This document shows, piece after piece, positions 2,138-35,030 of a stretch of DNA of 64,000 bases. The stretch is from positions 186,001 through 250,000 of the forward strand of contig NZ_CP043633.1 of the NCBI RefSeq assembly GCF_012974865.1, read 5' to 3'. A program made the position numbers and the translations under genes. This stretch comes from Nonlabens sp. Ci31 (GTDB taxonomy: Bacteria > Bacteroidota > Bacteroidia > Flavobacteriales > Flavobacteriaceae). Each line of letters begins with the position of its first letter. The stretch's first letter is position 1. The notes below the pieces were generated by a model. That model was not told the origin of the DNA. It did no database searches and was given only the letters and a program-made list of their open reading frames with translations.

Positions 2138-2737
2138 TTATTTATTCTTCATCTCTTGCAAAGTTTTATAAAAATCTTCCTGCACAGGACGGTTTTCAGG
2201 GATTTCTCTGAGTGGTTGTACCTCTGTCATCGTCTCGTGACAATCGGCAGGAAGTTGCTGGTATAGTTTTGTACCGGCTGTTTTCCATGCGATCATTTGA
2301 TCTGAAACTTCTTTAATTTTTTTGGCAGGATTCCCTACGATAACTGATCGGGATTCAAAAATGGCTTCAGCTTTTACAAATGACATAGCACCTACGATGC
2401 ATTCGTCACCGATAGTTGCGGCGTCCATAATCACACTGTTCATACCTATCATGCAATTGCGACCCAAGTTGGCACCGTGAATAATCGCACCATGTCCTAC
2501 ATGAGCACCTTCTTTAAGGGTAATGCTTTTACCGGGAAACATGTGTACGGTACAATTCTCTTGCACATTTACTCCATCTTCCAAGATAATCTCGCCCCAA
2601 TCACCTCGTATCACCGCACTAGGACCCACATAACAATTCTTACCTATAATCACATTACCGATTACGGTGGCTTGTGGATGGACGAAACTAGATTCGTGAA
2701 TTACGGGGATGTGGGATTTGAAAGAGTAGATGGACAT
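2138..2737 (-). CDS. paaY: PaaY, hexapeptide-repeat thioesterase / gamma-carbonic-anhydrase-like protein
   Basis: A 199-residue left-handed beta-helix protein with repeated hexapeptides (for example VIGNVIIGKNCYVG) and the metal-ligand histidines of the gamma-class fold (HMFPG, HVGHGAIIH). The PaaY branch is known to hydrolyse dead-end CoA thioesters formed during phenylacetate catabolism. It is the last paa gene of the minus-strand run, separated from the PaaF-like gene by ietAS and a broken four-helix-bundle gene. The start codon lies inside a 10-copy 7-bp tandem array, so there is no conventional leader. Family assignment is firm; the PaaY role is inferred from length, sequence and neighbours. 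Confidence 0.88.
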   Translation of the reverse strand: MSIYSFKSHIPVIHESSFVHPQATVIGNVIIGKNCYVGPSAVIRGDWGEIILEDGVNVQENCTVHMFPGKSITLKEGAHVGHGAIIHGANLGRNCMIGMNSVIMDAATIGDECIVGAMSFVKAEAIFESRSVIVGNPAKKIKEVSDQMIAWKTAGTKLYQQLPADCHETMTEVQPLREIPENRPVQEDFYKTLQEMKNK

Positions 2738-2805
2738 GTGGTATGTGGTATGTGGTATGTGGTATGTGGTATGTGGTATGTGGTATGTGGTATGTGGTAT
2801 GTGGT
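2736..2805. repeat. Ten perfect copies of the heptamer ATGTGGT at the paaY start
   Basis: Seventy bases made of ten exact 7-bp units. The first unit includes the two bases AT of the complement of the paaY start codon, so the array is the immediate upstream region of paaY (it reads ACCACAT toward the gene). It separates paaY from the broken four-helix-bundle gene. A 7-bp unit changes frame and spacing with each copy gained or lost. Confidence 0.97.
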
Positions 2806-2863
2806 AAAATTATTATTTCTCCATTCTATTCCTAATTTTACTTCGTAAGCCTATCAACATTTT

Positions 2864-3190
2864 TTAAATAGTCGTGATCTCTTTTCTTATATTCTCTCTT
2901 TGCTCTAAAGAAATATAATTTCTTCTCCATGCTTTTCCATTAGCCGAAACACGCTCATTAGAACTATAAATCGCATAATTAATATGTTTTATGAATTGAG
3001 CATCACTTCCAGGGTAACCTTCTGCTATATTCAAAGCAATTGAATCTGCTGCCCTTCTATACTGTGAACTTAGAGCCTATAATTCTCGTTGCGGAAATAG
3101 TTGGTCCAATGAATCTACAACCTCAGCAAAATCCTTCGCTTTTTGATAAACGACCAAATCTTCAAATTTAAAATGATAGTTGCTTTTCAT
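2864..3190 (-). pseudogene. Broken four-helix-bundle (S23 / IVS-type) gene
   Basis: Translation from the ATG at 3190 reads MKSNYHFKFEDLVVYQKAKD, then meets an in-frame TAG where the intact paralogue at 20150-20524 has Tyr (EL*ALSSQYRRAADS versus ELYALSSQYRRAADS). The frame stays open and homologous through the AEGYPGSDAQFIKH motif, then diverges before a TAA at 2864. This is subtype A of the family in this window. It is co-oriented with paaY and adjoins the heptamer array. No inverted repeat is visible on its upstream side, possibly because ietAS was inserted there. Confidence 0.85.
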
Positions 3191-3424
3191 ATTACAAATA
3201 AAACCAACTCAAAATCTGTTAATCGACACAATAACCTGCTTATTTAAATTTAGAGTTCTTTTATGTTCCATGTATGGTGTCGTAGCATCCCTGAGGGTGC
3301 TATGCACTATACATATTGTTGTGTTTTCGTTCTTTGTTTTCATTCCCATTTTTGTGTGTAAGCTTTGCTCTTTGCCACCGTAGTAGGAACGAGGATGGGA
3401 AATGTGAAGATTGCGTTGCTCACA
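3191..3424. other. Spacer between the broken four-helix-bundle gene and ietS, with one hairpin
   Basis: No coding sequence recognised. An imperfect hairpin lies near 3279-3305 (TAGCATCCC, loop TGA, GGGTGCTA). The downstream side of ietS shows no clear T-tailed terminator. The stretch may be debris from the ietAS insertion. Confidence 0.4.
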
Positions 3425-33509: not shown

Positions 33510-33525
33510 CCTTTTCCTTTTAAAA

Positions 33526-33810
33526 CTACATATGCTTCAGCTCATCAGGTAACTCATAAAAAGTAGGATGTCTATATACCTTATCTGTTGCAGGCTCAAA
33601 TAATTCGCCACTTGCCTCTGGACTGCTGGCTGTAATATTATTGGATTCGACCACCCAAATACTGACACCTTCGTTTCTACGGGTGTAAACATCTCGGGCA
33701 TTATTCATTGCCATCTCAGCATCTTCAGCATGCAGACTACCGCAATGTCTGTGTTCTAGTCCGTTTTTAGATCGTATAAAAACTTCCCAAAGTGGCGTTT
33801 CTTGACTCAT
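33526..33810 (-). CDS. paaB: PaaB, small subunit of phenylacetyl-CoA epoxidase
   Basis: About 94 residues from the ATG at 33810 (MSQETPLWEVFIRSKNGLEH); a GTG five codons earlier is possible. Matches PaaB throughout: LWEVFIRSKNGLEHRHCGSLHA, DVYTRRNEGVSIWVVES. It bridges the PaaA-PaaC heterodimers of the epoxidase. Upstream the GC-rich array separates it from paaA; downstream lies the paaB-paaC cassette. Confidence 0.94.
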   Translation of the reverse strand: MSQETPLWEVFIRSKNGLEHRHCGSLHAEDAEMAMNNARDVYTRRNEGVSIWVVESNNITASSPEASGELFEPATDKVYRHPTFYELPDELKHM

Positions 33811-33837
33811 ATTTTCAATTTTCACTTCATTAAATAG

Positions 33838-34067
33838 CTCCTCCGTCCTCCGACGGAGTGTGTTCCGCTGTTTCGGCAGAGTGTGTTCCGCGGTTTCGGC
33901 GGAATGCGTTCCGCCGTTACGCTGCTTGCGCCGGTTTCGGCAGAGTGTGTTTCGCGGTTTCGGCGGAATACGTTCCGCCGTTACGCTGCTTGCGCCGGTT
34001 TCGGCAGAGTGTGTTCCGCTGTTTCGGCGGAATGCGTTCCGCGGTTTCGGCGGAATGCGTTCCGCCG
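33838..34067. repeat. GC-rich tandem array between paaA and paaB
   Basis: Built from a roughly 23-bp unit (TGCGTTCCGCGGTTTCGGCGG and variants) and a longer unit that repeatedly includes CCGTTACGCTGCTTGCG, a copy of the last codons and stop of paaA (AQAV-stop). It starts near a dyad (CTCCGTC, CTCC, GACGGAG, about 33840-33860). At least three copies of the paaA-tail segment exist (near 33911, 33975 and the genuine one at 34068). No ORF inside is credible: the open frames there are repeat artefacts. Confidence 0.92.
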
Positions 34068-35030
34068 TTACACTGCTTGCGCAGTTTGTTGTTTTCTATT
34101 TTTCTGTTTGGACGCATAAGCAGTTGCAGCTTCACGTACCCAAGATCCATTCTCCCAAGCATTGCGACGGTCGTCTAATCGCTTTTTATTCATAGGTCCG
34201 TGACCTTTTACCACTTGCCAAAATTCGTCCCAATTAATCTCTCCAAAATCATAATTTCCTTTCTCGTCATTCCATTTTAAATCTGCATCTGGAATGGTCA
34301 GTCCTAAAAGTTCTGCTTGTGGAACTGTCTGGTCAATAAACTGCTGGCGCAACTCGTCGTTGGTCTTGCGCTTTAACTTCCACTTCATAGATTGCTCTGT
34401 ATGCGTGCTTGCCGCATCTGTAGGACCTAACATCATTAATGATGGCCACCACCAACGATTCAATGCATCTTGAGCCATTTCTTTTTGTTCTTCAGTACCA
34501 TTACAAAGCGACAGCATGATTTCATAACCTTGTCTCTGATGAAAACTTTCTTCCTTACATACGCGCACCATTGCGCGAGCATAGGGTCCAAAAGAAGTAC
34601 TACACAATGGGACTTGATTGATAATCGCAGCTCCATCTACCAGCCATCCTATAGTTCCCATGTCTGCCCAAGTCATGGTTGGGTAATTAAAAATCGATGA
34701 ATATTTTGCTTTTCCAGAATGTAAATCTTCATACATCTGCTCCCTTGTGATTCCTAAAGTTTCACAAGCGCTGTATAAGTAAAGACCATGTCCAGCTTCA
34801 TCTTGCACCTTTGCCAGTAGTGCTACTTTACGACGCAATGATGGTGCACGAGTGATCCAGTTTCCCTCTGGCAACATTCCTACAATTTCAGAATGTGCAT
34901 GCTGGGAAATCTGTCTGATATGCGTCTTGCGATACTTCTCAGGCATCCAGTCTTTAGGCTCGATTTTTTCATCTCTAGCAATTTTTGCATCAAATTGCGC
35001 TTCTAAACTTTTGATTTCTGCTTCGCTCAT
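34068..35030 (-). CDS. paaA: PaaA, catalytic subunit of phenylacetyl-CoA epoxidase
   Basis: A 320-residue di-iron ferritin-fold oxygenase. Iron ligands are visible as Glu48 region (HSEIVGMLPEGNW), E78-x-x-H81 (DEAGHG) and E161-x-x-H164 (KEESFHQRQG). It inserts one oxygen atom into phenylacetyl-CoA with electrons from PaaE. Length is typical. The last codons (AQAV) are shared with the GC-rich array, so the end of the gene has seeded or been replaced by repeat sequence. Upstream, paaE is 195 bp away, an unusual gap and reversed order relative to E. coli paaABCDE. Confidence 0.95.
   Translation of the reverse strand: MSEAEIKSLEAQFDAKIARDEKIEPKDWMPEKYRKTHIRQISQHAHSEIVGMLPEGNWITRAPSLRRKVALLAKVQDEAGHGLYLYSACETLGITREQMYEDLHSGKAKYSSIFNYPTMTWADMGTIGWLVDGAAIINQVPLCSTSFGPYARAMVRVCKEESFHQRQGYEIMLSLCNGTEEQKEMAQDALNRWWWPSLMMLGPTDAASTHTEQSMKWKLKRKTNDELRQQFIDQTVPQAELLGLTIPDADLKWNDEKGNYDFGEINWDEFWQVVKGHGPMNKKRLDDRRNAWENGSWVREAATAYASKQKNRKQQTAQAV

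Follow-up and report, generated by a model that had tools for sequence, protein, structure and literature searches.

The paa operon of Nonlabens sp. Ci31 carries cassettes with small ORFs at seven of its 11 gene junctions, and at six of these the ORF belongs to the S23 family. We consider it probable that these S23 cassettes are transcript-resident elements sharing the architecture of rRNA intervening sequences (IVSs). An earlier note on this DNA had proposed such an IVS-like layout, and we do find S23 ORFs that are flanked by complementary arms and run in the same sense as the transcript. Our sequence comparisons support the analogy and broaden it, because the arms follow a code that occurs in several bacterial phyla and tandem heptamers also precede the S23 ORF of the Coxiella IVS.

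Junction elements of the paa operon

The window analysed here is a 64,000-nt stretch of the Nonlabens sp. Ci31 genome (GCF_012974865.1, NZ_CP043633.1, positions 186,001 to 250,000 of the forward strand), and all coordinates refer to positions within it. Pfam and NCBIfam profiles together with tblastn positions give the gene order paaE-A-B-C-D-G-H-I-J-Z-F-Y on the minus strand. The E/A, A/B, D/G, and J/Z junctions are without a cassette; A/B holds an array of ~23-nt units (33854–34069, minus strand) that lacks an ORF. The small-ORF cassettes described in the earlier note are real: PF05635/TIGR02436 (S23) matches are present at all six junctions for which it had listed four-helix-bundle ORFs (B/C, C/D, G/H, H/I, I/J, and F/Y), and its GIY-YIG ORF at Z/F and solitary repeat array at A/B were both found. 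As it had counted, three of the six S23 ORFs are broken (B/C, H/I, and F/Y). Those at C/D, G/H, and I/J are intact, including the I/J copy that it had taken for a remnant; the remnants at this junction are the adjacent paaI end and what, by eye, is a displaced paaJ start.

Complementary arms bound the S23 ORF at three junctions of the window and adjoin the neighbouring stop and start codons. The B/C element (33109–33523, minus strand, as are all those below; ends set by eye) consists of a left arm (~33489–33523), a broken ORF (~33149–33483), and a right arm (~33109–33140), with 33111–33131 and 33489–33509 forming the inverted pair. In the C/D element (31828–32288), the left arm (32248–32288) is followed by an intact ORF of 119 aa (31875–32234) and a right arm (31828–31868) that stops 2 nt short of the start codon of paaD. 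The G/H element (26617–27147) has a left arm at 27090–27147, an intact 118-aa ORF at 26725–27081, and a right arm (26617–26674) whose sequence also contains the initial codons of paaH. The other three elements carry a tandem array on one side only, beside the downstream start codon. At H/I (25022–25436), a broken ORF (~25066–25436) is followed by the array GAGTTGGT x4.6 (25022–25058), which abuts the paaI start. The I/J element (20085–20542) comprises an intact ORF listed as 20150–20542, with an alternative ATG at 20524 by eye, and an 8-nt array, ATTAGTGG x8.5 (20085–20152), that by eye abuts the apparent displaced paaJ start. At F/Y (2736–3190), the ORF is broken (~2815–3190) and the 7-nt array ATGTGGT x10 (2736–2806) abuts the paaY start.

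The remaining cassette, at Z/F (7849–8286), encloses its GIY-YIG ORF (7898–8218) between the inverted pair 7849–7876 and 8259–8286; with B/C, C/D, and G/H, it completes the four cases of ORFs within inverted repeats that had been described. Its flanking repeats are palindromic, and for this reason we rejected it as a member of the S23 element family, so that the cassettes do not form the single family originally envisaged.

Arm pairing and element history in the genus

For the comparison across the genus, a row counted as paa when each side had a paa gene no more than 300 nt away, which yielded 62 rows (53 S23 and nine GIY); in the C/D row of G016, where the frame continues, the profile end served as that of the ORF. 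On average, the arms of the 53 S23 elements score higher with their own partner than with a swapped one: the mean own-arm score is 35.5, versus 18.2 for swapped partners and 17.3 for direct orientation, and none of 2000 within-junction permutations reached the observed own-arm sum. Individually, arms are significant in 47 of the 53 (at most two of 200 shuffles equally high), and predicted folds pair the left and right flanks over at least 12 bp in 48, compared with 21 when the right flank is swapped. Partner fit is an average effect, since the own right arm is the top-scoring of all right arms in 13/53 elements; related copies at one junction have arms in common, and at H/I (n = 3) the own score (28.3) lies below the swapped one (32.8). 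Between different junctions, cross-partner scores have means of 14–17, which is background level; the genus-and-relatives set described below likewise gives no sign of arms in common.

PaaA was found in 22 of the 23 genus genomes, Nonlabens sp. Ci31 included, and the paa junctions vary over the genus in a mosaic fashion, with some sites filled, others empty, and others scarred. B/C is filled in 19 of 21 cases and C/D in 12 of 21, the H/I genes abut in six genomes, and two genomes (G015 and G017) retain the paa genes with zero PF05635 matches. The empty sites, inspected while seeking a target-site duplication, are scarred or too diverged for alignment by eye. The proposal of the earlier note thus withstood comparison on two counts: related paa loci have empty as well as filled junctions rather than a fixed occupancy, and flanking arms are present at other loci.

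The history of the S23 copies is one of old local duplication, vertical inheritance, and loss. In the tree, the copies from B/C, C/D, and G/H group together in a single clade restricted to paa, and copies persist for long at orthologous junctions. Recent hopping is not supported, since the nearest match lies within the same genome for one of 106 S23 copies; between copies of one genome, identity over at least 70 aa peaks at 65% for the genus set and at 74% for G075. The suggested copying into neighbouring gaps therefore stands as an old, local process and falls as a recent one. Similarly, the claim of active turnover holds for losses, which are seen, and not for recent gains, which are not, leaving ongoing insertion unsupported. 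The S23 ORFs are under purifying selection (median dN/dS 0.07–0.21). Reverse transcriptase (RT) matches occur in eight of the 23 genus genomes, with none in the other 15. No RT match lies near the paa locus of Ci31, whose four matches are at least 0.7 Mb away, and RT-less genomes rich in S23 exist, such as G009 with 10 PF05635 matches.

Arm code outside paa

Two further sets of S23 loci were analysed. The genus-and-relatives set comprises 54 copies, retained from 69 loci after filtering by score, length, and duplication; five rows (L078, L089, L093, L098, and L104) are paa-type by neighbour sizes and tree position. Significant arms are found in 35 of the 54, and in 33/49 once the paa-type rows are removed. 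The broad set combines the top 80 hits of a single four-sequence query with 30 loci from the top-scoring genomes of a 148-genome draw, and is tilted towards typical S23 by this choice; all 30 unnamed loci and 77 of 80 named ones (all but L147, L152, and L174) provide 107 rows. Here, arms are significant for 74 of 107 S23 ORFs (59/77 named, 15/30 unnamed), versus 15 of 206 control ORFs of the same loci. Rows from outside Bacteroidota, with the phylum taken from record titles that mostly denote metagenome bins, have significant arms in 15 of 19 cases. In two genomes sampled for nearly all of their S23 copies, arms are significant in 11 of 30 rows, which counts against the reading we favour below.

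The arms follow a code of mostly degenerate 7-nt repeats (nTnAGWn), AG-rich on the 5′ side and CT-rich on the 3′ side, except in the paa clade of B/C and C/D; within the genus, B/C and most C/D arms have a period of 6 instead of 7. The best repeat lag is 7 in 61/72 broad-set arms, compared with 1/13 control arms, and the unit consensus from 77 arms has a log-likelihood of −550.4, versus a mean of −587.1 (sd 2.6) for position-permuted units. AG-every-7 runs (x4) reach 7.31/kb within 150 nt of S23 and 0.226/kb elsewhere in the same loci (~32x), in a tally that counts overlapping matches and in which orthologous paa elements enter more than once. Their polarity is opposite on the two sides (5′, AG 197 versus CT 21; 3′, CT 172 versus AG 26). 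Enrichment near S23 extends to period 8 (1.76 versus 0.07/kb) and, more weakly, to period 6 (0.60 versus 0.13/kb). In the left arm, G exceeds C in 64 of 74 cases and falls below it in six, whereas control ORFs have G above C at −60 to −25 in 32/106. The right arm begins a median of 11 nt past the ORF stop.

With overlapping ORFs removed, 86 of the 107 broad-set S23 ORFs are sense to both neighbours and four antisense to both; the result varies with the gene set, giving 62 and 7 when every ORF of at least 80 aa is kept. Of 169 pairs of adjacent non-S23 genes in these loci, 145 have both members on the same strand, so that the sense bias alone is informative, and not the co-directional neighbourhood. 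A location in rRNA was rejected both for the window, where Rfam at gathering score gave no matches, and for the 100 of 110 broad-set loci searched, which held no rRNA and a single tRNA, near L193. An excess of G–U over A–C among arm mismatches was absent from the paa rows including GIY (71 versus 109), the genus and relatives (49 versus 46), and the broad set (84 versus 99), and selection on a sense-RNA stem is therefore not supported.

The heptad hairpin around S23 genes thus occurs in several bacterial phyla. We regard the code as new; in literature searches with thin coverage of subscription journals, no listed title or abstract describes heptad hairpins around S23 ORFs at non-rRNA sites, which does not prove absence.

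Explanations and known systems

In the reading we favour for the S23 cassettes, each is an Avd-like four-helix-bundle gene that forms the loop of a hairpin, with a stem of short degenerate repeats, mostly of 7 nt, and an AG recurring every seventh position along the 5′ arm. Being sense-oriented inside an operon, the element would depend on read-through transcription; the earlier note envisaged that such elements may also be processed from the mRNA. The S23 protein may bind the AG-heptad hairpin in the transcript that encodes it, and the stem might allow mRNA junctions to tolerate the insert, as in rRNA. Arm complementarity would be maintained mainly at the DNA level, via slippage and inter-arm copying, and rare new copies may arise nearby, perhaps with RT supplied in trans, as for Avd in diversity-generating retroelements (DGRs). 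More tentatively, and with considerable doubt, we suggest that S23 elements could be a bacteria-wide transcript-resident class, defined by an AG-heptad hairpin and the Avd-like protein that recognises it and copied through RNA, by an RT borrowed in trans, into gaps close by on that transcript, with rRNA IVSs as copies that landed in rRNA. A signature common to operon copies of several phyla and the published rRNA case would place both in one setting and predicts a nucleic-acid ligand for the S23 protein, and an operon whose junctions have been filled and emptied over a genus offers natural experiments on insert tolerance.

Right arms that begin shortly after the ORF stop and, in paa, end near or inside the start of the next gene are also what a host-useful operon device would have, in which the hairpin hides the next start codon until a ribosome translating the S23 ORF opens it, coupling or tuning expression. 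Sense orientation, long residence at orthologous junctions, and purifying selection on the protein agree with this explanation. We nevertheless think it unlikely, because occupancy varies at B/C, C/D, and H/I, G015 and G017 keep their paa genes without an S23 match, half of the Ci31 ORFs are broken, and the amino-acid constraint exceeds what coupling would need.

Inverted arms and the coexistence of filled and empty sites could also reflect ordinary DNA mobile elements, MITE-like, with a transposase in trans and S23 as a passenger. This is improbable, however, as elements at different junctions have no arms in common, recent copies were not found in the genus set, and the 86 to 4 sense bias is unexpected from transposase insertion. 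Short-period slippage is common, and the long perfect 7–8 nt arrays at F/Y and I/J look like its products; that low-complexity arrays merely lie beside small ORFs by chance is nonetheless very hard to reconcile with the ~32x density of AG-every-7 runs near S23, their opposite polarity, and the match between the two arms of one element beyond shuffles. A defence or addiction role for S23 would account for purifying selection despite frequent loss, and published accounts name PF05635 among CRISPR-linked and DGR-linked genes (PMC10910872, PMC10053308). Expression of S23p reportedly left the growth of E. coli unaffected (PMC4990558), and S23 is located inside a catabolic operon, which makes such a role highly improbable.

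Among known repeat systems, REP/RAYT elements combine short palindromic repeats with a tyrosine-type transposase. Their likeness to our elements is limited to the Z/F GIY-YIG ORF with palindromic repeats on both sides, and even there the domain is a GIY-YIG nuclease; S23 arms are repeats rather than short palindromes. A Class 2 unit of the Nostoc tRNA-Leu P6b repeats reportedly resembles nTnAGWn. In this intron, degenerate 7-nt repeats pair into a transcript hairpin like that of the S23 arms, but the structure is intronic and the available portions of the source mention no ORF (PMC3488679).

The C/D S23 protein is predicted as a four-helix model (pLDDT 91.8), with structure matches to 2rld (E 5e-5) and 2gsc. 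It also matches Avd 4dwl (TM 0.74/0.81, prob 1.00, E 0.32); both DGR Avd structures (4dwl, 8ube) are four-helix bundles with TM 0.74–0.75 to the query, although at weak E-values, and Avd–PF05635 homology is remarked in one published account (PMC10053308). A Xanthomonas S23 relative is described as a pentamer (PMC4990558). In contrast to DGRs, RT is not among the genes identified at the paa junctions.

23S rRNA IVSs are removed by RNase III with no ligation afterwards. The closest counterpart is the Coxiella IVS, which is excised by RNase III and has tandem GACAGAT heptamers upstream of its S23 ORF (PMC4990558). According to the same account, S23 proteins are without known function and the role of rRNA IVSs is little known. 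The IVS and the elements described here share an S23-family ORF, a size of ~0.4–0.5 kb, complementary ends, and upstream tandem heptamers of variable number with AG at each seventh position; the heptamer likeness refers to this one published 23S rRNA case, with B/C and most C/D arms differing in period. The Coxiella IVS lies in rRNA, whereas our elements occupy mRNA operon junctions, several per operon. Furthermore, the Coxiella ORF is described as decaying and its product as expendable and probably not made in vivo (PMC4990558), while the genus paa-junction ORFs are mostly intact and under purifying selection.

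Inserts at the junctions of the phenylacetate operon

The phenylacetate (paa) operon lies on the minus strand of the window, within the single 3.74-Mb contig of the Nonlabens sp. Ci31 genome, and its genes were identified by Pfam and NCBIfam profiles. On checking the window, the S23 (PF05635/TIGR02436) ORFs, the GIY-YIG ORF, and the repeat arrays hold the positions described in the earlier note, and its count of three broken S23 ORFs among six stands, the broken ones being B/C, H/I, and F/Y; the I/J copy, listed there as a remnant, is intact. Around 20000-20700 it is adjoined by a duplicated paaI end and by what looks, on reading by eye, like a displaced start of paaJ. 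PF05635 matches occur at 14 places in the whole genome, five of them inside the operon, where the B/C remnant was not picked up.

The earlier note had proposed comparing related paa loci for filled and empty junctions, and both kinds were found. PaaA is present in 22 of the 23 genus genomes, including this one. Among fetched loci holding both flanking paa genes, an S23 ORF or remnant occupies 19 of 21 B/C junctions and 12 of 21 C/D junctions. At H/I, the genes abut or overlap without an insert in six genomes, and six more carry an insert of ~520 bp without S23; the three of these that were translated each yielded one ORF, which we take to be DUF1697-like. PF05635 finds nothing in genomes G015 and G017, whose operon loci likewise lack S23. 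In G001 and G006, just 24 nt remain at C/D, resembling the right arm of relatives, which we read as a scar of S23 element loss.

In the S23 tree, which has few columns and some open forks, the copies at B/C, C/D, and G/H group together in a paa-only clade of 38 rows (support 100/99). A second clade (21 rows) holds the I/J, H/I, F/Y, and E/A copies, off-locus paa-type copies, L008 (one more copy of this genome), and L072 (a long branch from another family). These clades read as local duplication inside the operon, followed by vertical inheritance with losses. The best match lies in the same genome for one of 106 S23 copies, and in the genus set no two copies of one genome exceed 65% identity, the value for C/D versus G/H of this genome. 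Median dN/dS is 0.07-0.21 for S23 against 0.03-0.055 for paa genes, with three S23 classes resting on one pair and dS often near saturation. Related S23 copies at six loci (L081, L083, L087, L090, L094, and L097), from six genomes, one of another family, are flanked by similar-sized ORFs (~234 and ~218 aa), suggesting that they have long resided at a single junction.

Further features accompany these junctions. The paaH ORF opens with codons supplied by the G/H element's right arm (26617-26666), a repeat thus turned into protein sequence; paaH starts resembling repeats occur at the same position in several relatives. ORFs on the opposite strand lie between paa genes at 11113-12677, 17373-20018, 21048-24546, and 28080-30209; relatives have gaps of ~1-5.5 kb at some of these junctions, one being, by eye, a SulP-like transporter. 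The A/B junction holds an array of ~23-nt units without an ORF (33854-34069), and other genomes have different sequences there, some with arm-like units. The palindrome CGCTTTCGCGAAAGCG recurs at many junctions, such as D/G, E/A, and I/J of the genus. Elsewhere in the window are a perfect 7-nt array (TTAGTTA x10, 56185-56254) and a 233-nt unit repeated three times (52398-53083).

Complementary arms and their heptad unit

Pairing of the arms (complementary repeats 5' and 3' of the ORF) was scored in 53 S23 elements from paa junctions and averaged 35.5 with the element's own right arm, versus 18.2 with the right arms of others and 17.3 in direct orientation; 47 were singly significant. Swapping partners within junctions (2000 trials; mean 1504, sd 56) never reached the observed sum of 1882, a result somewhat inflated by kinship among elements. 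The better own-partner fit is an average effect: the own right arm outscores every other for 13 of the 53 elements, and at H/I, with three elements, own arms score below swapped ones. Arms are common to related copies at one junction (cross means 21-33 within and 14-17 between junctions), and their sequences vary between junctions and also between clades at one junction. Since the B/C ORFs (17 rows) form one clade, as do the G/H ORFs (9 rows), the differing arms around them indicate that arms turned over in sequence while complementarity was kept. In predicted RNA folds, 48 of the 53 elements pair their left and right flanks over at least 12 bp, compared with 21 when the right flank is swapped.

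The broad set comprised the 80 best matches to one four-sequence query and 30 loci from the best-scoring genomes of a 148-genome draw. Significant arms flank 74 of its 107 S23 ORFs versus 15 of 206 control ORFs, and 15 of 19 rows assigned by record titles to Clostridia, Planctomycetota, proteobacterial groups, Acidobacteria, Nomurabacteria, and others; in a sample, 35 of 40 showed predicted pairing of at least 12 bp (20 with a swapped right flank). Two genomes with nearly all S23 copies taken gave 11 significant rows of 30, so the hairpin is common without being universal.

The best repeat lag is 7 in 61 of 72 broad-set left arms, in 25 of 33 further S23 copies of the genus and relatives, and in all nine G/H arms; lags of 6 or 12 prevail at B/C (16/18) and C/D (8/12). 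The unit nTnAGWn, derived from 77 arms, has a conserved AG core (G 88%, A 75%). Of 312 AG cases, 240 share the modal phase of 7, where 129 would be expected by chance. In the 150 nt next to S23 ORFs, runs with AG at each seventh position reach 7.31 per kb, versus 0.226 per kb elsewhere in 778,678 bases, mostly reading AG on the 5' side of the ORF and CT on the 3' side.

Nature of the elements

The earlier note assigned all cassettes to a single family, from which the GIY-YIG element at Z/F (7849-8286) must be set apart. Its ORF lies between inverted palindromic repeats, found at five places in the genome at up to three mismatches. Of 28 related GIY-YIG ORFs of the genus and relatives, 18 have flanks in inverted orientation, frequently palindromic and not the same from locus to locus; several rows of this count are the Z/F junction of one genome or another. 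Kinship with the S23 elements was rejected on these flanks, and the element looks like a REP-associated nuclease.

We favour the view that S23 elements are self-serving and transcript-resident, each with a protein that would bind the hairpin of its own transcript, on the combined evidence of AG/CT polarity, sense bias, and fold. The fixed polarity argues for a reader of one strand, be it RNA, DNA in single-stranded form, or S23 protein bound there. Among the 107 broad-set cases, 86 ORFs are sense to both neighbours versus 4 antisense to both, so the ORF seems dependent on outside transcription. The C/D protein model (pLDDT 91.8) matches the S23 structures 2rld and 2gsc; against the retroelement protein Avd, the TM-score is good and the E-value weak. 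RT-assisted copying might be guessed at. No G-U excess was found among arm mismatches in three sets (71 to 109, 49 to 46, and 84 to 99), so selection for a sense-RNA stem is not visible, and slippage together with copying from arm to arm at the DNA level accounts for their concerted change equally well or better.

Relation to 23S rRNA intervening sequences

The layout resembling rRNA intervening sequences (IVSs), proposed in the earlier note, finds a counterpart in Coxiella. Searches of the window and of 100 S23 loci gave no rRNA hit. In the Coxiella account (PMC4990558), tandem GACAGAT heptamers, two or three by strain plus one degenerate, precede the S23 ORF of the 23S rRNA IVS, which is excised by RNase III; the S23 protein is argued there to be probably not made in vivo. 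The heptamer places AG every 7 nt, as in the operon S23 arms. The operon elements and this Coxiella IVS have protein family, layout, and arm code in common, whereas their address differs: operons in one case, 23S rRNA in the other.
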